Source of the DNA: Acidobacteriaceae bacterium
GTDB taxonomy: Bacteria > Acidobacteriota > Terriglobia > Terriglobales > Acidobacteriaceae
DNA length: 50,446 nt
Assembly (NCBI GenBank): GCA_003131585.1
Contig: PKVW01000029.1
Location: 1 to 50,446, forward strand
Reading direction: 5' to 3'
Shown piece by piece: positions 6,018 to 19,159 of the stretch. A model generated the notes under the pieces. That model ran no database searches. It was not told the origin of the DNA and saw nothing but the letters and a program-made list of their open reading frames with translations. The first letter of the stretch is position 1. Every line of letters begins with the position of its first letter. The translations under genes and the position numbers were made by a program.

Positions 6018-7940
6018 TTGAATACCGACCTTAATCCAGCCCAGAAGACCCCGAAAGTCCAGAGACTTCGCGCCGTTCTGCCGGAAGTGTGGAAGCTGAT
6101 GCGCCCCCGGCGCTGGCTGATCGGGCTGGGCTTTGTGTTGATGGTGATCAACCGGGTTGCGGCGCTGGTGTTGCCGTATTCCACGAAGTTCCTGATCGAT
6201 ACCGTCATCAACAAGCACCACATGGATCAACTGCGGCCGCTGGTTCTGGTTGTATTGGCCGCGACACTCGTGCAAGGCGTCACCTCATTTTCCCTGACGC
6301 AGTTGTTGTCGAAGGCGGCGCAACGGCTGATCACGGAGTTGCGCCAACAGGTGCAGGTCCATATCTCCCGCCTGCCGGTGGCCTTTTACGACGGCAACAA
6401 GACCGGCACTCTGGTAGCACGCATCATGAGCGACGTGGAGGGCGTGCGCAACCTGCTGGGCACTGGCCTGGTGGACTTCGCGGGGGGATTGGTCACCTCT
6501 GGGATTGCGCTGGTTTTGTTGTTCCGCACCAGCCCGCAGATGACGTTGATCGCCGTCGGCTCGCTGCTGTGTTTTACGGTGGCCCTCAATAAGGCCTTCG
6601 CGACCATCCGGCCGATCTTTCGCGAGCGCAGCAAACTCAATGCGGAGGTCACGGGCCGACTCACGGAGTCGCTGGGCGGCGTGCGGGTGATCAAGGGGTA
6701 CCACGCAGAAGAGCGCGAGGAAGCGATTTTTGCGACCGGCGTGCGCCGCCTGCTGGACAATGTGATGCGCACCCTCACGGCCACTTCGGTCATGAGCCTT
6801 TCGGCAAGCGTGCTGCTCGGCGGAGTGGGAGCGGTCACGATGTATGTGGGCACGCACCAGATTGCCTCCGGCACGCTGACGGTTGGCGGTTTTTTTTCCT
6901 ACACTTTGCTGCTGGGTTTTCTGATTGCGCCCATTATGCAGATCGTCTCCATCGGAACCCAACTCACCGAGGCATTGGCGGGGCTAGAGCGAACGCAGGA
7001 GATCATGCGGGAGCGGCCGGAAGATCAAGACCCCAGACGCGACGTGCCGCTGCACAATATCGTGGGACGGATCGAGTTTGACGACGTAAGTTTCAGCTAC
7101 GATGGAAGACGCGACGTGTTGCGCGATATTTCCTTCCGCGCCGAGCCTGGTACCGTAACGGCGCTGGTTGGCTCATCCGGCTCGGGAAAATCCACCACCA
7201 TCGGCCTGATCTCCGCTTTTTACGTGCCCACCAAAGGCAGAATCCTGGTGGATGGCGCGGACTTGAGCACGGTTCGGCTCGACTCCTACCGCACGCGCCT
7301 TGGAGTCGTGTTGCAGGAATCGTTTCTGTTTGACGGAACGATTCGCGAGAACGTCGTGTTTTCCCGTCCCGATGCGAGTGAAGAAAAAATCATGCGGGCT
7401 TGCCGGATCGCGCGCGTGGATGAGTTCGCCGAATCTTTCGCGGAGAGGTATGACACGGTGGTCGGCGAACGCGGCGTAAAGCTCTCGGGCGGCCAGCGGC
7501 AGCGGATTTCGATTGCCCGCGCCATTTTGGCCGAGCCCCGCATCCTGATTCTCGACGAGGCAACCTCCAGCCTCGACTCGGAATCGGAGGCGATGATCCA
7601 GCACGGACTTTCTTATCTCATGCAGGGCCGGACCACGTTTGTGATCGCGCACCGCCTTTCGACCATCCGCCGCGCCGACCAGATCCTGGTGATGGAGCAG
7701 GGGCAAATCGTGGAGCGTGGCACGCACGAACAGCTCTATGCCGCGCAAGGCCGCTACTACGATCTCTACACCAGGCAGCAAGGCTTGGAGCATAACCTGT
7801 TCCTCGCGCCGGGCGAGGGAGACACGCTTGAGGGGGACGGGAACGGCAACGGCAACTCCGGGCGGGCACGCAATGGCGATGCAAAGGACGCCGACGCCTT
7901 GCGTGTGCTCAGAGGAGAGGTCCGCCGGCCCTATGGGTAG
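6018..7940 (+). CDS. ABC exporter, fused membrane and ATPase domains (MsbA/lipid-exporter type)
   Basis: A half-transporter of 640 residues that should work as a homodimer in the inner membrane. Residues about 30-320 form the six-helix export domain. The ATPase follows with Walker A GSSGSGKST (385-393), signature LSGGQ (489-493), Walker B ILILDE (509-514) and the switch His545. The charged, Gly/Asn-rich C-terminal tail (600-640) is atypical and may be dispensable. The start is TTG at 6018 without a clear ribosome site; an ATG at 6099 is possible but would trim the N-terminus before the first helix. The next gene overlaps its 3' end by 8 bases, so the exporter and the MacB-like pair probably form one operon. 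The substrate is unknown. Confidence 0.9.
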   Translation: MNTDLNPAQKTPKVQRLRAVLPEVWKLMRPRRWLIGLGFVLMVINRVAALVLPYSTKFLIDTVINKHHMDQLRPLVLVVLAATLVQGVTSFSLTQLLSKAAQRLITELRQQVQVHISRLPVAFYDGNKTGTLVARIMSDVEGVRNLLGTGLVDFAGGLVTSGIALVLLFRTSPQMTLIAVGSLLCFTVALNKAFATIRPIFRERSKLNAEVTGRLTESLGGVRVIKGYHAEEREEAIFATGVRRLLDNVMRTLTATSVMSLSASVLLGGVGAVTMYVGTHQIASGTLTVGGFFSYTLLLGFLIAPIMQIVSIGTQLTEALAGLERTQEIMRERPEDQDPRRDVPLHNIVGRIEFDDVSFSYDGRRDVLRDISFRAEPGTVTALVGSSGSGKSTTIGLISAFYVPTKGRILVDGADLSTVRLDSYRTRLGVVLQESFLFDGTIRENVVFSRPDASEEKIMRACRIARVDEFAESFAERYDTVVGERGVKLSGGQRQRISIARAILAEPRILILDEATSSLDSESEAMIQHGLSYLMQGRTTFVIAHRLSTIRRADQILVMEQGQIVERGTHEQLYAAQGRYYDLYTRQQGLEHNLFLAPGEGDTLEGDGNGNGNSGRARNGDAKDADALRVLRGEVRRPYG

Positions 7941-13054: not shown

Positions 13055-14167
13055 TCAGAGCGTCCGCTTGAACAGCGGAATCGCGATTCCGAGAGTGATG
13101 GCGGCGAAGATCGTCAGAAACAGCATGTCGCCCCAGACCGCCGCCAGAGTCGTCTCTTTCAGCAGCAGACACTTGAAGCCATCGACCGCGTAGGTGAAAG
13201 GGTCCACTCTGGCAATCGCCCGCAACCACGGCGGGAATGCCTGGATGGGATAAATTGCCCCACTGGGAAAAAACAGCAGTGTATTCAGAATGCCGAACAT
13301 CGCCCGCGGCACCAGAGGGTCTTCGATGCGCACCATCAGCAGAAACATCATAGTGTTGAACGCAAGAGAAGTCAGCACGATCATCACCAGCAGTCCGAGC
13401 ATCGTGACCGGATTGAAGAGCGTGCTCACTCCGGCAATCAGCGATCCAATCACCGTGATGATCACTCCCGTCATCACGGCCTTAATCGCGCCCGCCAGGT
13501 TGAGCCCTAACACCAGTTCGAGCTTCGTGATGGGCGTGACCAAATAGCCTTCATGCACACCGCGCGCCTTGTCGTCGATGTACAGCATTCCGCCCCCGAT
13601 CATCACCGAGACGAACATCGCCAGGGCGAGCGAGCCTGGCAGCAGATATTTCATGTATTCGATGTAGGGATAAAGTTCGACAATTTCGAGCGCGGTCTGC
13701 TGCAGGACGCGCGGCTCTACCGTGGGCTGGTTCAGTGCGTTGGTCAGGTCCGTGAGCTCGGCCTCCAGCGCGGAGCTCATGAAGTTGTCGCTGTTATCCA
13801 CCACCAGAGCGATCTGAGGGTGGTTGTCTTCGTAAACTCGCCGCGAGAACTGGGGCGGGATAATCACAGCGCCATCGAGCTTGCCGTTGCGCACGTCCTC
13901 CATCGCTTGCCTTTCGTTGGCGTAGTACACCGGCACGAAGGTGCGAATGTTGGCGCGCACGGAGTCGAAGGCTTCGCGAATCTTCAGCGCCTGCGTGCCT
14001 CCGTCCTGATCGACAATGGCGAGCCGGGCGTCGCGAATCTTCCCGCCGAACGCGTTTCCCAGAATGACGAGTTGCACCAGGGGAAAGATCATCGACGCCA
14101 GCATCAGCGCCGGCGAGCGAAAGAACTTGCGCATTTCGCGCTCGACAATGGCCATCATTCGGTTCAT
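13055..14167 (-). CDS. ABC-2 type transporter permease (YbhS/YbhR/DrrB family)
   Basis: A membrane protein of 370 residues and last gene of the tetR-hlyD-ATPase-permease operon. It has one N-terminal helix (about 20-40), a large external domain of about 130 residues, and a C-terminal block of five helices with MLYIDDKARGVHEGYLVTP and the signature near FPSGAIYPIQAFPPWLRAIARVDP that marks ABC-2 exporters. In the E. coli counterpart (ybhFSR) two permeases form a heterodimer; here only one permease is encoded, so a homodimer is likely. It begins 19 bases after the ATPase stop. Confidence 0.9.
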   Translation of the reverse strand: MNRMMAIVEREMRKFFRSPALMLASMIFPLVQLVILGNAFGGKIRDARLAIVDQDGGTQALKIREAFDSVRANIRTFVPVYYANERQAMEDVRNGKLDGAVIIPPQFSRRVYEDNHPQIALVVDNSDNFMSSALEAELTDLTNALNQPTVEPRVLQQTALEIVELYPYIEYMKYLLPGSLALAMFVSVMIGGGMLYIDDKARGVHEGYLVTPITKLELVLGLNLAGAIKAVMTGVIITVIGSLIAGVSTLFNPVTMLGLLVMIVLTSLAFNTMMFLLMVRIEDPLVPRAMFGILNTLLFFPSGAIYPIQAFPPWLRAIARVDPFTYAVDGFKCLLLKETTLAAVWGDMLFLTIFAAITLGIAIPLFKRTL

Positions 14168-14186
14168 AACTTCAACGCCGGGCGGC

Positions 14187-15242
14187 TCATGGCTGCAACC
14201 CCGGCCGCTGCGGCATGGTAAAGGCGTAAGCCTTCACCAGTTCGTCGCGCAACTGCCTGCCCGTGTAATGCACAAATACATCGTCCAAGGTGGTGTTCTG
14301 CACCGACAGCGACTTCACAGCAACCCCGGCTTCGACGGCCATCTCGACCAGTACGGTGGTGGTGCGGGACCCATTGCCGGTCAGGATTCGATACATTCCC
14401 GCTCCCTCGTGCTGGATGGATGTGACATCGTCCATCGTGTGCAGGCGCTGCTCCCAATCCTCCGGCGAATTCTCGAACTGCGCTTCAATCACGTTCGATC
14501 CCGGTACGCTGGCTTTCAGCGCCATGGGCGCGTCGAGCGCGACCAGTTTGCCGTGGTCGACGATGGCGATCCTGTCGCATAGCCGGTCGGCTTCGTCCAT
14601 GTAATGCGTGGTGATCAGGATCGTAAGTTGGCGCTGGCTCATGATGTTGCCCAGCATCTCCCATACGGCCACGCGCGACACTGGGTCCAGTCCGGTGGTG
14701 GGCTCATCGAGGAAAAAGATTTTCGGATGATGCACCAGCCCGCGGGCAATCTCCAACCGCCGCCGCATGCCGCCGGAGAGCGTCTTGGTCTGCGCATCGC
14801 GCCACTTAGTTAGGTCCACCAGCCCCAGCAACTCCTCAATCGAGCGCTTCCGTTCCTTCGCCGGCACGTCGTAGAGTTTGGCGTAGATGTTCAGATTCTC
14901 TGCCACCGTGAGATCGAGATCGCTGGTCAGGGCCTGCGGGATCACTCCGATGGTTCGCCGCACCGCATCCGGATCTTTTGCAACATCGTGGCCGGCAATG
15001 CGCGCCGTCCCCGAGGTGATGGGAATCAGCGTGGTCATCATGCGGATCAGGGTCGACTTCCCCGCTCCATTCGGACCGAGCAGGCCGAAGATCTCGCCTT
15101 CTTTCACGTTGAATGAAACATCGCCGACGGCGGTGAAGTCGCCGTACTTCTTGACGATGTGCTCGACTTCGATGGCGTAAGTTACTGCGGAGGCAGGCGC
15201 AGGCGCGTCGCCATTTGCCCCAGCGTTTAGGTCCGCCATCAT
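14187..15242 (-). CDS. ABC-2 transporter ATPase (YbhF/DrrA-like)
   Basis: The energising ATPase of the export operon, 351 residues. It shows GLLGPNGAGKST (Walker A), TLSGGMRRRLEIARGL (signature), FFLDEPTTGLDP (Walker B) and TTHYMDEAD (switch His), then a C-terminal accessory domain of about 100 residues of the drug/polyketide exporter type. Its ATG at 15242 overlaps the stop of the upstream fusion-protein gene (ATGA); a second Met follows at once. It should bind the ABC-2 permease encoded next. Drug, lipid or polysaccharide export are all possible. Confidence 0.92.
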   Translation of the reverse strand: MMADLNAGANGDAPAPASAVTYAIEVEHIVKKYGDFTAVGDVSFNVKEGEIFGLLGPNGAGKSTLIRMMTTLIPITSGTARIAGHDVAKDPDAVRRTIGVIPQALTSDLDLTVAENLNIYAKLYDVPAKERKRSIEELLGLVDLTKWRDAQTKTLSGGMRRRLEIARGLVHHPKIFFLDEPTTGLDPVSRVAVWEMLGNIMSQRQLTILITTHYMDEADRLCDRIAIVDHGKLVALDAPMALKASVPGSNVIEAQFENSPEDWEQRLHTMDDVTSIQHEGAGMYRILTGNGSRTTTVLVEMAVEAGVAVKSLSVQNTTLDDVFVHYTGRQLRDELVKAYAFTMPQRPGLQP

Positions 15243-16336
15243 TGCTTCCCCGCTGCCGCCGCGCTCTGCGGATTGCCGCCCCTCAACTGCTCAGGTGAAA
15301 GTAGGACCTCGGCCGTCATCCCCGGAACAAACGCGCCTTTGGGATTGTCCAACCGGATTTTCAGCACGATCGTTTTGATATCCCGTTTGCGCCGGCTCAC
15401 ATCGCGCTGCGTGGCAAAATCGCCTTCCACTCCTTTGAAGAAAACCTTCCCGCCGGTAATCGTTCCGCCCGGCAACCGCACACGCAGCGAATCGCCATAG
15501 CCGATGTGGTCAGCGTAGGTTTCTGGGATCGCCGCCCGCGCCCAGGTGTCGGTCAGATCGACGATCGTCACAATGGGGCCGCCGATGTTGACCACCTCTC
15601 CCTGCCGCGCCGCCCGCACCGAAACTGTGCCGGTCACGGGTGCATAAACATTCGTGTAGCCCAGCCGCACCGCTGCCTGATTCTTCTGCGCGACTGCGCT
15701 CTTGAGATCAGATTGAGTGGCCTCGACGGTGCTCTTCGCAGCACTAGCCTGATGCGTGCGCGCGACCGCCGAATTCAAATCTGCTTCCGCGGCTTTCACC
15801 AGCTCCTGCTGCGCCTGCACGGTTGCCTGTGCCGCCTGCAAGTTGGTTTCCGCCTGCACGCGTTCCTGATCGGAAGCGACCCCCGCCTTGGCCAGTTCAA
15901 TGGCCCGCCGGCTGTCGCTGGCAGTGCGATCGAGGGCGGCTTGCGCCTGCAAAAGCTGCGCCTTGGCAGATGAAAGTTTGGCGCGCGCGTTGGCCACGTC
16001 GCTGGAAGTGGAACCTGAAGTGGATTCCTCCGTGTGCTGCATCTCGGACACTTTATGCTGCAAGCTGGCGATGTTCGCCGCCGCGGCGGCTTCCTGCGTC
16101 TGCAACTCGGAGGGATCGAGCACGGCAATCAAGTCTCCGGCATTCACCGGCGTGCCTTCGTCCACCAGCAGCTTCTGGATGCGGCCTTCCACCTGCGCGC
16201 TGACGATTACCTGGTTCGCGTCAACCGTGCCGATCAGCACCAGGTCTTTGGAATGGTCGGCGGACAACCCATAGTAGATCGCCGAGATCACGAAGATGAT
16301 GCCGAGAAGAATGAAGAACCGGTTACGAGCGCTCAT
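15239..16336 (-). CDS. HlyD/EmrA-family membrane-fusion protein (YbhG-like)
   Basis: The periplasmic adaptor of the export operon, 365 residues. One N-terminal helix (7-24) anchors it in the inner membrane. A split lipoyl-like domain (GTVDANQVIVSAQVEGRIQK, and TGTVSVRAARQGEVV further on) flanks an Ala/Gln-rich coiled-coil hairpin (about 80-215), and a beta-barrel follows. AGGAG lies about 8 bases before the ATG, which overlaps the TetR stop by 4 bases. With the ABC-2 ATPase and permease it should form a tripartite exporter using an outer-membrane factor encoded elsewhere. Confidence 0.9.
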   Translation of the reverse strand: MSARNRFFILLGIIFVISAIYYGLSADHSKDLVLIGTVDANQVIVSAQVEGRIQKLLVDEGTPVNAGDLIAVLDPSELQTQEAAAAANIASLQHKVSEMQHTEESTSGSTSSDVANARAKLSSAKAQLLQAQAALDRTASDSRRAIELAKAGVASDQERVQAETNLQAAQATVQAQQELVKAAEADLNSAVARTHQASAAKSTVEATQSDLKSAVAQKNQAAVRLGYTNVYAPVTGTVSVRAARQGEVVNIGGPIVTIVDLTDTWARAAIPETYADHIGYGDSLRVRLPGGTITGGKVFFKGVEGDFATQRDVSRRKRDIKTIVLKIRLDNPKGAFVPGMTAEVLLSPEQLRGGNPQSAAAAGKQ

Positions 16337-17043
16337 TCACGTACTCCTGATTTGCGAACTGCTGACGCCGCGCCGGCACAGGGCTGAAACAGCGCCGCAG
16401 AAATAAAATCCAGAACCGCGGCTCGCCGCTCGGCGACGCGCTTCGGCGCCAGCGGATTGAAGTGCACGATCCGCTGCATTATCGGGGCACTACTGAAATA
16501 GAAAACGATCATCGCCACCATGGAAGGAACAAAGTGCGCCGGGTCGACCTGCCGGAATTCGCCTTCCGCGATCCCTTTGTGCAACAGTTCTCCCACCCGC
16601 CGGTAAATCGGCTGGAAATAAGTCTTGACCAGCCTGTCGATATGCTGCGAGTGGCCTTCGCGCGCCCGCATCATCTCGCGCTGCATCAGTTTGGGATAGA
16701 TCTGGTTTGACGCAATGAAATCGAAATAAGCGCCCACGTAGGCCATGATCTTCTCGCGCGGCGGCTGGTCACTGTCGAGCACCTGTAAAACTTTGGTCTT
16801 CATCCCGGAAAACTCGTGGTCGAGCACCGCGCCGTAGAGCGTTTCCTTGTCTGTAAAGTAGTAATAGAGTAGAGCCTTGTTAACTTTCGCCGCACGTGCA
16901 ATGGCGTCGGTGCGAGCCCCGGCAATGCCGTGCTCGGCAAACTCCTGGGCCGCGGCCTGCAGAATGGCGGCACGGCTCTCCTCCGGCTGCCCGCGGGAGC
17001 CCATTCGAGGAGAGTGCTGGCGAGGACGCAAAAGTTGAGCCAT
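16333..17043 (-). CDS. TetR/AcrR-family repressor of the export operon
   Basis: A DNA-binding regulator of up to 236 residues. The N-terminal helix-turn-helix is clear (ILQAAAQEFAEHGIAGARTDAIARAAKVNKALLYYYF). The C-terminal part would be the ligand-binding and dimer domain. The ATG at 17043 is used, but the Met at 17004 is equally plausible and neither has a good ribosome site. It is the first gene of an operon with a fusion protein, ATPase and ABC-2 permease, the same order as E. coli ybiH(cecR)-ybhG-ybhF-ybhSR. Autorepression through the AT-rich site just upstream is likely. Confidence 0.88.
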   Translation of the reverse strand: MAQLLRPRQHSPRMGSRGQPEESRAAILQAAAQEFAEHGIAGARTDAIARAAKVNKALLYYYFTDKETLYGAVLDHEFSGMKTKVLQVLDSDQPPREKIMAYVGAYFDFIASNQIYPKLMQREMMRAREGHSQHIDRLVKTYFQPIYRRVGELLHKGIAEGEFRQVDPAHFVPSMVAMIVFYFSSAPIMQRIVHFNPLAPKRVAERRAAVLDFISAALFQPCAGAASAVRKSGVRE

Positions 17044-17133: not shown

Positions 17134-17415
17134 CTACTTCGCTCCGCCCGCGATCGACGGCACCAGAAGCACTTCATCCCCCTCTTGGAAGGCGTAGCTG
17201 GGTCCGCCGAGGAAGCGAATGTCTTCGTCATTCACGTAAATGTTGAGGAAGCGGCGCACCTGTCCAGCCTCGTCGCGCAAGTGGGGCTTCAGTTCCGGGA
17301 ACTTCTCATCGAGGACGGAGAACAGTTCTCCCAGGTTTGTGGCCGCACACGCGATCGAGCTGACGCCTGCCGTGTGCCGCCGCAGGGCGGTCGGAATTTG
17401 TATTGTGATCGACAT
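17134..17415 (-). CDS. MoaD/ThiS-family small sulfur-carrier protein with C-terminal GGAK
   Basis: A ubiquitin-fold protein of 93 residues. The beta-grasp pattern is typical: TIQIPTALRRHT at the start, a Leu-rich helix, FLNIYVNDEDIRFLGG, then DEVLLVPSIAGG. The tail reads Ile-Ala-Gly-Gly-Ala-Lys-stop. Carriers of this type are adenylated and thiocarboxylated on an exposed Gly-Gly, so two residues would have to be removed first, as JAMM-type proteases do for QbsE- and HcyS-like carriers. It starts 12 bases after the threonine-synthase-like gene and is surely co-transcribed with it behind the SAM riboswitch. A molybdopterin role is unlikely here because no other moa gene is near. Confidence 0.88.
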   Translation of the reverse strand: MSITIQIPTALRRHTAGVSSIACAATNLGELFSVLDEKFPELKPHLRDEAGQVRRFLNIYVNDEDIRFLGGPSYAFQEGDEVLLVPSIAGGAK

Positions 17416-17427
17416 CTTCTCCTGCTC

Positions 17428-18741
17428 CTACGCTCCCACCGTCGCCGCCGCTTCTTTCGCGACCTCGGCGACTTCCAGCGATTGCTGCAGATAGTTTTCG
17501 AATTCGGCCAGCTTGGGAGCGATCGGTCTCTCTGTCTCGTAGACGCCGGCGAGCACATCGGTCGTCTTCAGGCCGTTGCCGGTGATGCACAACACGGTTG
17601 TTTCCTCGGGCAGGATGCGATCCTGGCGATAGAGTTTGCCGGCGGTGCCCACGGTCACCCCGCCGGCGGTTTCGGTGAAGATGCCTTCGGTCTCCGCCAG
17701 CAGACGGATCGAATCGATCACCTCGGGATCGCTCACATCTTCGGCCCATCCGCCGCTTTGCTTAATGGTCTTGATGGCATAGTGCCCGTCGGCGGGATTG
17801 CCGATGGCAAGCGAACGCGCGATAGTCGCCGGTTTCTGGGGCTCGATCTCCGTGCTGCCGGTCTTTACGGCAGTCGAAATCGGCGAGCATCCGGTAGCCT
17901 GCGCGCCAAAGAACTTCACCGGTTTCTCCTCGACCAACCCGAGCTTGATCAGCTCATCGAACGCCTTCTTGATCTTGGTTATCAACGACCCGCCCGCCAT
18001 CGGAACGACCACATTGTCCGGCAGCCGCCAGCCCAGTTGTTCCGCGATTTCGAAGCCCACAGTCTTCGAGCCCTCGGCGTAATAGGGCCGCAGGTTCACG
18101 TTGACGAAGCCCCAGCGACGCTCTTCGGCGATCTGCGAGCACAGGCGGTTTACTTGATCGTAGTTGCCGTTGATGCGCACCACGTTCGCGCCGAAAACCT
18201 GTGTGCCCAGAATCTTCGCGGGCTCAAGATCGGATGGAATAAGTATCCAGGCTTTCAGCCCCAGCCGCGCGGCATGGGCCGCCACGGCGTTCGCCAGATT
18301 GCCCGTCGAAGAACACGCGACCGTGTCGAAGCCGAAAGCGAGCGCCTGGGCCAGCGCCACGGCCACAGCGCGGTCCTTGAAGCTCAGCGTGGGCAGGCAG
18401 ACGGCGTCATTCTTGAGGTAGAGATTCTGCGCGGCGGTTTGCGCGTCGTTGGTCCCGGCCAGCCGCGCCGCCAGGCGGGGCGCCCGGAATAGAGGCGTGA
18501 ACCCGACCGGCAGCCGGGGCTCAAAGCCTGCGGGCAGCGGCAATAATTCGGCGTAGCGCCACATGTTCGGCGGCCGCTGCGCGATTTCCTCGCGGCTAAA
18601 CGTTCCCTGGGCAATCGAGTCCCGGATAGTGTCGTAGTCATAGGTGATCTCCAGAGGAGAGAAACACTCGTCGCAGATCGAGCGGGGCTGGTTCCCCCAG
18701 CTTCGGCCGCATTCCCGGCAGTGCAGTTCGTAGTGAGCCAT
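17428..18741 (-). CDS. thrC: Threonine-synthase-like PLP enzyme with N-terminal zinc ribbon; candidate homocysteine synthase
   Basis: A fold-type II PLP enzyme of 437 residues. The N-terminus carries a four-Cys zinc ribbon (Cys8, Cys11, Cys23, Cys26). The PLP lysine is Lys122 in LSFKDRA, SSTGNLANAVAAHAA is the substrate loop and MAGGSL binds phosphate. By family it is a threonine synthase, acting on O-phosphohomoserine. However, it lies under a SAM-I riboswitch and is followed at 12 bases by a sulfur-carrier gene, so a sulfhydrylation giving homocysteine must be considered. The start at 18741 matches the family N-terminus. An in-frame TTG at 18819 lies 3 bases behind a perfect AAAGGAGG and would add 26 residues. 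Confidence 0.85.
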   Translation of the reverse strand: MAHYELHCRECGRSWGNQPRSICDECFSPLEITYDYDTIRDSIAQGTFSREEIAQRPPNMWRYAELLPLPAGFEPRLPVGFTPLFRAPRLAARLAGTNDAQTAAQNLYLKNDAVCLPTLSFKDRAVAVALAQALAFGFDTVACSSTGNLANAVAAHAARLGLKAWILIPSDLEPAKILGTQVFGANVVRINGNYDQVNRLCSQIAEERRWGFVNVNLRPYYAEGSKTVGFEIAEQLGWRLPDNVVVPMAGGSLITKIKKAFDELIKLGLVEEKPVKFFGAQATGCSPISTAVKTGSTEIEPQKPATIARSLAIGNPADGHYAIKTIKQSGGWAEDVSDPEVIDSIRLLAETEGIFTETAGGVTVGTAGKLYRQDRILPEETTVLCITGNGLKTTDVLAGVYETERPIAPKLAEFENYLQQSLEVAEVAKEAAATVGA

Positions 18742-18890
18742 ATCGCTACTCGCTTTCTTAGTTCTGTTACAGCAGCGAATAGCTGGGGACGAGCCGGAGA
18801 AAAGAGCCCTAAAATACAAAGGCCTCCTTTCCCCGGAAAAAGGAAAAAGAGGTATCGGAATGCAAATAGAAATAAAGGTTCGCATCCGAA
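18742..18890 (-). promoter_or_regulatory. Expression platform between SAM aptamer and thrC
   Basis: About 150 bases of leader follow the aptamer. An imperfect hairpin CGGATGC/GCATTCCG, with one bulge, begins right after P1 and is followed by a T-rich stretch, so it could act as a terminator. Further on, CCTTTTTCC can pair with GGAAAGG and would hide the perfect Shine-Dalgarno-like AAAGGAGG (18823-18830). Either transcriptional or translational control is therefore possible; I cannot decide which. Confidence 0.45.
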
Positions 18891-19002
18891 TCTCATGTTC
18901 CCCGTTTCCGGGCGGGAGTTGGCACCTGGCGGTCGGGATATATGATCCCGATCCGGTTGCCGTGGCGTCACAGGGCTCGTCCCTCAGCCACTCTGCATGA
19001 AA
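18891..19002 (-). promoter_or_regulatory. SAM-I (S-box) riboswitch aptamer
   Basis: Read on the minus strand, the class-defining features occur in order. P1 is TTTCATG pairing with CATGAGA (19002-18996 and 18897-18891). P2 is GTGGC/GCCAC enclosing the kink-turn and the GAGGGA and GAGCCC segments. Then come the invariant GGCAACC, a P3 hairpin CGGGAT/ATCCCG, the conserved AGGTGCCAACTCC joint, and P4 TCCCG/CGGGG. The core GAGGGA-(n)-GCCC-(n)-GGCAACC-(n)-AGGTGC is diagnostic of S-box RNAs, which shut genes off when S-adenosylmethionine is plentiful. It lies 149 bases upstream of the threonine-synthase-like gene. Confidence 0.93.
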
Positions 19003-19159
19003 TTCAGGTCTGCCCCGAAGAGCAAACTTGTCCACATAATGCTACAACTCCCCCCAGAGCTACGTCAACCGGCGGCAGTTGGACTGTTGGTCACACAGAG
19101 GAGGATTTGACAAGGCGAATTAGGCTTCTGTATGTTCTGTTTGAACTGAAAGCACAGAT

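Follow-up and report, generated by a model that had tools for sequence, protein, structure and literature searches.

Does a threonine-synthase-like gene that is preceded by an S-adenosylmethionine (SAM) riboswitch and followed by a sulfur-carrier gene make threonine, or does it make homocysteine? The question is raised by the window, by which we mean the whole stretch of 50,446 nucleotides analysed here (our contig C51, PKVW01000029.1, of a 3.93 Mb draft genome, 96% complete, from a soil bacterium of the Acidobacteriaceae). From sequence comparison and from analogy with a known Streptomyces system, our answer is that the locus is very probably a homocysteine operon of the MetM–MetO kind, in which a relative of threonine synthase would take its sulfur from a small carrier protein. 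The likelihoods that we attach to this reading and to its rivals are not meant to sum to one; the rivals overlap. The parts of the operon are as follows.

18890..19003, (-) strand: SAM-I (S-box) riboswitch aptamer, RF00162, 74 bits over model positions 1-108, kept across the genus

18823..18852, (-) strand: terminator-like hairpin between the aptamer and the start codon, likely the expression platform

17428..18741, (-) strand: metM, a threonine-synthase-like pyridoxal phosphate (PLP) enzyme of 437 amino acids, likely a homocysteine synthase (PF00291, TIGR00260 and tree)

17134..17415, (-) strand: metO, a CysO/MoaD/ThiS-type sulfur carrier of 93 amino acids, ending SIAGG-AK (PF02597, 44 bits)

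An earlier, sequence-only reading of the window had claimed this trio of an S-box, a threonine-synthase-family gene and a sulfur-carrier gene at 17134-19002, and the family models confirmed all three parts, with coordinates correct to within one base. A covariance-model search, which that reading had proposed as a check, aligned the full length of RF00162 at 74 bits (gathering score 44.4, E 1.4e-15), and the segments by which the aptamer had been recognized, namely P1, GGCAACC and AGGTGCCAACTCC, all lie inside the alignment; an S-box look-alike was ruled out by this full-length match. RF00162 has no other match in this genome. The enzyme, which matches PF00291 at 220 bits and TIGR00260 at 264 bits (cut-off 167), had been described as a PLP enzyme with a zinc ribbon and Lys122, and both Lys122 and Cys8/11/23/26 proved to be invariant among 14 aligned orthologues, our own included. 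The gene said to encode a MoaD/ThiS-like protein 12 bases on is metO, which indeed starts 12 bases past the metM stop codon and matches PF02597.

The arrangement is widely kept. Among 61 genomes, our own included, an orthologue of the enzyme (at least 59% identity, fragments included) was found in 50, at 51 places among the matches listed, where weak fragments may be missed. RF00162 lies within 600 bases upstream at 44 of these places (one of them, in genome G028, under the cut-off), a carrier lies within 1 kb downstream at 46, and both flank the enzyme at 40, some places being cut by contig ends; flanking at so many places puts the trio beyond chance. Thirty of the 32 near-complete genomes (at least 90% complete and at most 5% contaminated) hold the orthologue, G054 and G056 being those without it. 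One genome, G024 (77% complete, 610 contigs), has two MetM copies, on C273 and C277, which share 79% and 92% identity with the enzyme of the window.

A contig scan with the orthologue alignment gave at least 588 stretches encoding relatives. In the best 80 of these, a carrier match was found in 72 loci, in 69 of them no more than 500 bases downstream, and the loci come from Acidobacteria, Nitrospinota, Nitrospirae, Mariprofundaceae, Neomarinimicrobiota, cyanobacteria, Omnitrophota, Verrucomicrobiota, Kiritimatiellae, Deltaproteobacteria and Actinomycetota, among others. An Rfam search of 40 loci picked for spread (39 of the best 80, and L210 from Nonomuraea gerenzanensis) found RF00162 upstream of the enzyme gene and in its orientation in 22, within 300 bases in 21 and at 2.3 kb in L174. 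The Nonomuraea locus has the riboswitch, the enzyme and a carrier ending in Gly-Gly. A lysine riboswitch (RF00168, 59.7 bits) was seen near a MetM locus at L145 1775-2000 (-). The gene types recorded among 81 loci were ThiF-type (25), CysK/CysM-type (23), NIL (16) and ThrB (8) and, more rarely, JAMM (7), MetH (3) and cysteine desulfurase (1).

The sequence-only reading, which could make no search, knew of no described system with exactly this trio; such a system has in fact been described. According to the accessible text of PMC12172450, MetM of Streptomyces albulus is the homocysteine synthase of Hasebe et al. (2024) and acts on O-phosphohomoserine, the sulfur-carrier gene metO belongs to metM, and a SAM riboswitch lies upstream of metM; a sulfur-carrier gene beside thrC in Microcystis is said there to resemble S. 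albulus metO. In S. lividans, the accessible parts of PMC8079986 place RF00162 before SLIV_16930-SLIV_16925, labelled ‘threonine biosynthesis’, and list a cysteine desulfurase that is preceded by a SAM-IV riboswitch; SLIV_16930-SLIV_16925 is very likely metM–metO. The accessible parts of PMC12452182, PMC11237513 and PMC4239095 hold no description of a riboswitch–enzyme–carrier trio. The find is therefore an extension of a pathway known from Streptomyces since 2024 to an acidobacterium, and the trio itself is not new.

Curated-model scores by themselves would label metM a threonine synthase. TIGR00260 has six matches in the own genome, the window enzyme included, of which three are weak (32-59 bits). 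The canonical ThrC, at C42:29097, scores 270 bits and is followed directly by the homoserine kinase ThrB (TIGR00191, 216 bits, over the cut-off), and a third threonine-synthase-like gene, C42:92049 (L070 7882-9120 (+)), scores 157 bits with TIGR00260 and 544 with PRK08197, whose cut-off is 303. PRK08197 is also the best-scoring equivalog model for the window enzyme, which reaches only 264 and does not pass. Since the genome holds other strong TIGR00260 matches, one of them beside ThrB, the role of threonine synthase need not fall to the window enzyme.

The active site points in the same direction. In an alignment of 16 orthologues and six paralogues, all 16 orthologues read PTLSFKD where the canonical paralogues read PTGSFKD; the orthologues also have STGNLAN where the paralogues have STGNTSA and, at the PLP-phosphate loop, AGGSLI or near variants where the paralogues have GGNLGN or GGNLAN; the motifs of the PRK08197-type paralogue are unlike both. 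The canonical ThrC signature, PTGSFKD together with a GGN-type PLP-phosphate loop, was not found in the window enzyme. A phylogeny, also proposed earlier as a check, was built from 36 rows with the root drawn at the midpoint; Nonomuraea and cyanobacterial homologues stood in for S. albulus MetM, and L174 was dropped because of a stop inside its matched stretch. A branch with 99/99 support separates 29 MetM-type enzymes, among them the window enzyme and the cyanobacterial and actinobacterial homologues, from Thermus ThrC (1uim), the ThrC that adjoins ThrB in the own genome, a further four ThrC paralogues and the PRK08197-type row. The window enzyme thus belongs to the MetM clade and stands apart from canonical ThrC.

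These results bear on the view that the enzyme is a second threonine synthase, or a synthase/deaminase, with SAM control balancing the flux between threonine and methionine and the carrier a bystander. An S-box normally switches genes off at high SAM, so that SAM control would be wrong in sign for a threonine enzyme; moreover, the own genome already has a canonical ThrC beside ThrB, the active-site motifs differ from those of the canonical paralogues aligned, and the carrier follows within 500 bases in 69 of the best 80 loci, across many phyla. We therefore consider this view improbable, although the TIGR00260 score of 264 bits is above the cut-off and, in the accessible text of PMC12172450, a Microcystis homologue has both threonine synthase and deaminase activity in vitro.

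Gene order elsewhere indicates what the substrate of MetM may be. Two loci (L154 and L155) have the order SAM-I – MetM – carrier – ThrB, and three others (L157, L160 and L163) have SAM-I – MetM – ThrB, where an adjacent carrier was not found; such operons with homoserine kinase point to O-phosphohomoserine. In eight loci of the same genus (L103-L109 and L118), a second SAM-I precedes a NifS/IscS-type cysteine desulfurase (TIGR03402, 442-458 bits, under the cut-off of 531). That the same two riboswitch targets occur in Streptomyces and here suggests that the pathway under SAM control includes the step that supplies the carrier with sulfur. Two further RF00162 matches lie away from the enzyme, one near a contig end in G048 and one, at G034:C444, under the cut-off.

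The best solved relatives of metO are 3dwg_C (77 bits) and 4n6e_B (65 bits), labelled in the database as culture filtrate antigen cfp10A and ThiS/MoaD family protein, respectively; the former we take to be CysO of Mycobacterium tuberculosis, solved with CysM. Given these relatives, and given that cysteine genes can also be under S-box control, the pair might be a carrier-dependent cysteine synthase of the CysO–CysM kind, acting on O-phosphoserine or O-acetylserine. This would be extremely unlikely, because the partner enzyme is of the ThrC family rather than CysK/CysM, its best curated models being threonine synthases, and because the operons with ThrB indicate a homoserine substrate. The own genome, furthermore, has what looks like a carrier-based cysteine route elsewhere: contig C57 (L073 5350-6940 (-) and 11913-13573 (+)) holds another CysO-like carrier with a MoeZ-type protein, in which ThiF and rhodanese domains are joined, and a pair made up of a CysM gene and, behind it, a JAMM peptidase gene; a CysK over the cut-off is also present. 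JAMM was found in 56 of the 61 genomes. A ThiS–MoaE fusion (PF02597, 57 bits; PF02391, 132 bits) is encoded at G000:C43, L071 6037-6786 (+).

In five distant loci (L174, L182, L183 at 7257-7772 (+), L191 and L192), the carrier is fused behind its Gly-Gly to a NIL domain (PF02597, 53-71 bits; PF09383, 48-54 bits); ThiF and CysK/M genes lie near all five, and a JAMM gene near four. NIL domains are known from methionine importers and may act as sensors of the amino acid. A broader and tentative picture is that in these acidobacteria both sulfur amino acids would be made from carrier-bound sulfur, with a CysO-like carrier, MoeZ and the CysM–JAMM pair on the cysteine side, MetO and MetM on the homocysteine side, the JAMM peptidase shared, and riboswitches on both synthase and desulfurase; elsewhere, MetO–NIL might be a precursor that needs cleavage, with NIL perhaps as a methionine sensor.

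If metM were a threonine synthase, what would make homocysteine? MetA (PF04204) was found in 14 of the 61 genomes and MetY over its cut-off in 10, and 24 of the 30 near-complete genomes holding the orthologue have neither. HcyBio (COG1900, PF01837) was discarded as the missing route, since none of the 61 genomes has it by a search that was positive in three controls. MetX reached its very strict cut-off of 500 bits in none of the 61 genomes, nor in any of 14 controls, though seven of these have matches, so that its absence has to be judged from scores: in 12 of the 24 genomes nothing MetX-like was found at E <= 1e-20, nine others reach 75-114 bits and the last three reach 147-153 bits. A single MetX scored strongly, at 460 bits; it belongs to G054, where RF00162 is without a match and a distant paralogue comes closest to the window enzyme; G056, the other near-complete genome without the orthologue, had none of MetA, MetY, HcyBio and MetX over the cut-off. 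With no other known homocysteine route found in many of the genomes examined, the threonine synthase label leaves a gap in methionine synthesis, which the gene read as MetM closes.

The gap might be closed in another way in relatives without MetA and MetX, namely by a PF01053 enzyme acting as a plant-like, O-phosphohomoserine-dependent cystathionine gamma-synthase, with MetM doing otherwise. A PF01053-type match below the MetY cut-off (E <= 1e-60) does occur in 40 of the 61 genomes, and the own example, a C49 protein, reaches 488 of 513 with a model for cystathionine gamma-synthase and 499 of 594 with one for the gamma-lyase, the others being unclassed. The C49 protein, however, adjoins a CysK-like gene, an arrangement known from pairs for reverse transsulfuration, and its locus (L010) showed no SAM riboswitch, the sole one in the genome preceding metM; we hold this explanation to be very unlikely.

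The MetM–MetO reading has several points to answer. The own genome encodes a MetA–MetY operon over the curated cut-offs (G000:C28, L012 6323-8714 (-)), so that by gene content MetM is not the sole route there and would be a second homocysteine route. A genome search suggested at the outset thus gave a divided result: the second thrC that the sequence-only reading had asked about exists, beside thrB, yet the standard methionine route that would speak against that reading exists too. Three of the relatives without MetA and MetY (G011, G051 and G053) have the MetX-like matches at 147-153 bits, which are not classable. Rfam found no SAM-I in 18 of the 40 loci searched, both cyanobacterial ones tested (L197 and L199) included, and the tree program flagged the PRK08197-type row as a long branch whose join may be false. 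The Gly-Gly of metO is not terminal, Ala-Lys standing behind it, and the tail varies in relatives; with two residues behind Gly-Gly, trimming is needed. As given in the accessible text of PMC12172450, the Microcystis homologue could in vitro both form threonine from O-phosphohomoserine and deaminate it, it did not raise methionine in cells, and its authors regard it as apparently not acting fully as MetM there; a trial was made with sodium sulfide, and that text describes none with a thiocarboxylated carrier.

The switch in the leader is a candidate only. The hairpin at 18823..18852 (-) has 12 pairs and a loop of 6, followed by CCTTTGTATT. In each of the 17 leaders aligned, a hairpin stands at this same place, with folding energies between -11.3 and -16.3 kcal/mol; several of these hairpins are bulged. 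The scan for terminator-like sites is weak on its own, because such sites also arise by chance (six in the leader region, where shuffled sequence gave 2.8 on average); the kept hairpin is the likely expression platform. The own MetA–MetY operon adjoins an AMP-binding enzyme and a pyridine-nucleotide-disulphide-oxidoreductase-type protein.

On balance, the route read from the sequence alone, in which O-phosphohomoserine and carrier sulfur give homocysteine under SAM control, is very probably right: it matches the S. albulus MetM–metO system, as far as the accessible text of PMC12172450 describes it, and it has comparative support in the separate clade, in the second ThrC beside ThrB, and in the 24 of 30 genomes without MetA, MetY and HcyBio. 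The proposed course of events is as follows. At low SAM, the leader would let transcription of metM–metO go on. A JAMM peptidase would remove the residues behind the Gly-Gly of the carrier, and a MoeZ-type enzyme (E1 plus rhodanese) would adenylate the carrier and load sulfur from cysteine desulfurase on to it as a thiocarboxylate. MetM would then exchange the phosphate of O-phosphohomoserine, supplied by ThrB, for the carrier sulfur; the resulting homocysteine would go on to methionine and SAM, and threonine would come from the product of the separate thrC that adjoins thrB. In the Streptomyces pathway, Hasebe and co-workers reportedly found metO downstream of metM and thiocarboxylated MetO to be the sulfur donor, and the pathway is said to occur in other bacteria and archaea. 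The desulfurase riboswitch and the ThrB operons would make it easy to test outside Streptomyces.

Directly behind metO, at 13055-17043 (-), lie genes for a TetR regulator, an HlyD-type adaptor, an ABC ATPase and, judged by eye, an ABC-2 permease, perhaps reached by read-through from the metM–metO transcript. Of the best 80 loci, 11 have an ABC ATPase gene near metM, nine a TetR gene and nine an HlyD gene.

How, then, does the window operon compare with known systems? With canonical threonine synthase (Thermus 1uim and the own ThrC), the window enzyme shares its family, the PLP-bearing lysine and probably the substrate O-phosphohomoserine, and differs in its separate clade, its changed motifs, its carrier partner and its S-box. 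In HcyS–MetY of Wolinella, a carrier thiocarboxylate likewise gives the sulfur of homocysteine, and a MetY-type enzyme uses O-acetylhomoserine; here, in contrast, the neighbour of the carrier is ThrC-type, and the own MetY lies on another contig. The CysO–CysM–Mec system of M. tuberculosis resembles ours in having a CysO-type carrier and a PLP enzyme of the same superfamily that takes the carrier sulfur, whereas the partner in the window is ThrC-type and under SAM control, with homocysteine as its likely product. The closest counterpart described in the accessible text of PMC12172450 is MetM–metO of S. albulus, which has the same ThrC-family enzyme, sulfur carrier and upstream SAM riboswitch. 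The differences from MetM systems elsewhere are that the host is an acidobacterium, that its genome has MetA–MetY too, that the riboswitch of the cysteine desulfurase is SAM-I in relatives of this genome but SAM-IV in S. lividans (accessible parts of PMC8079986), and that the carrier of the window has a two-residue tail behind Gly-Gly, whereas the Nonomuraea and cyanobacterial carriers have none.

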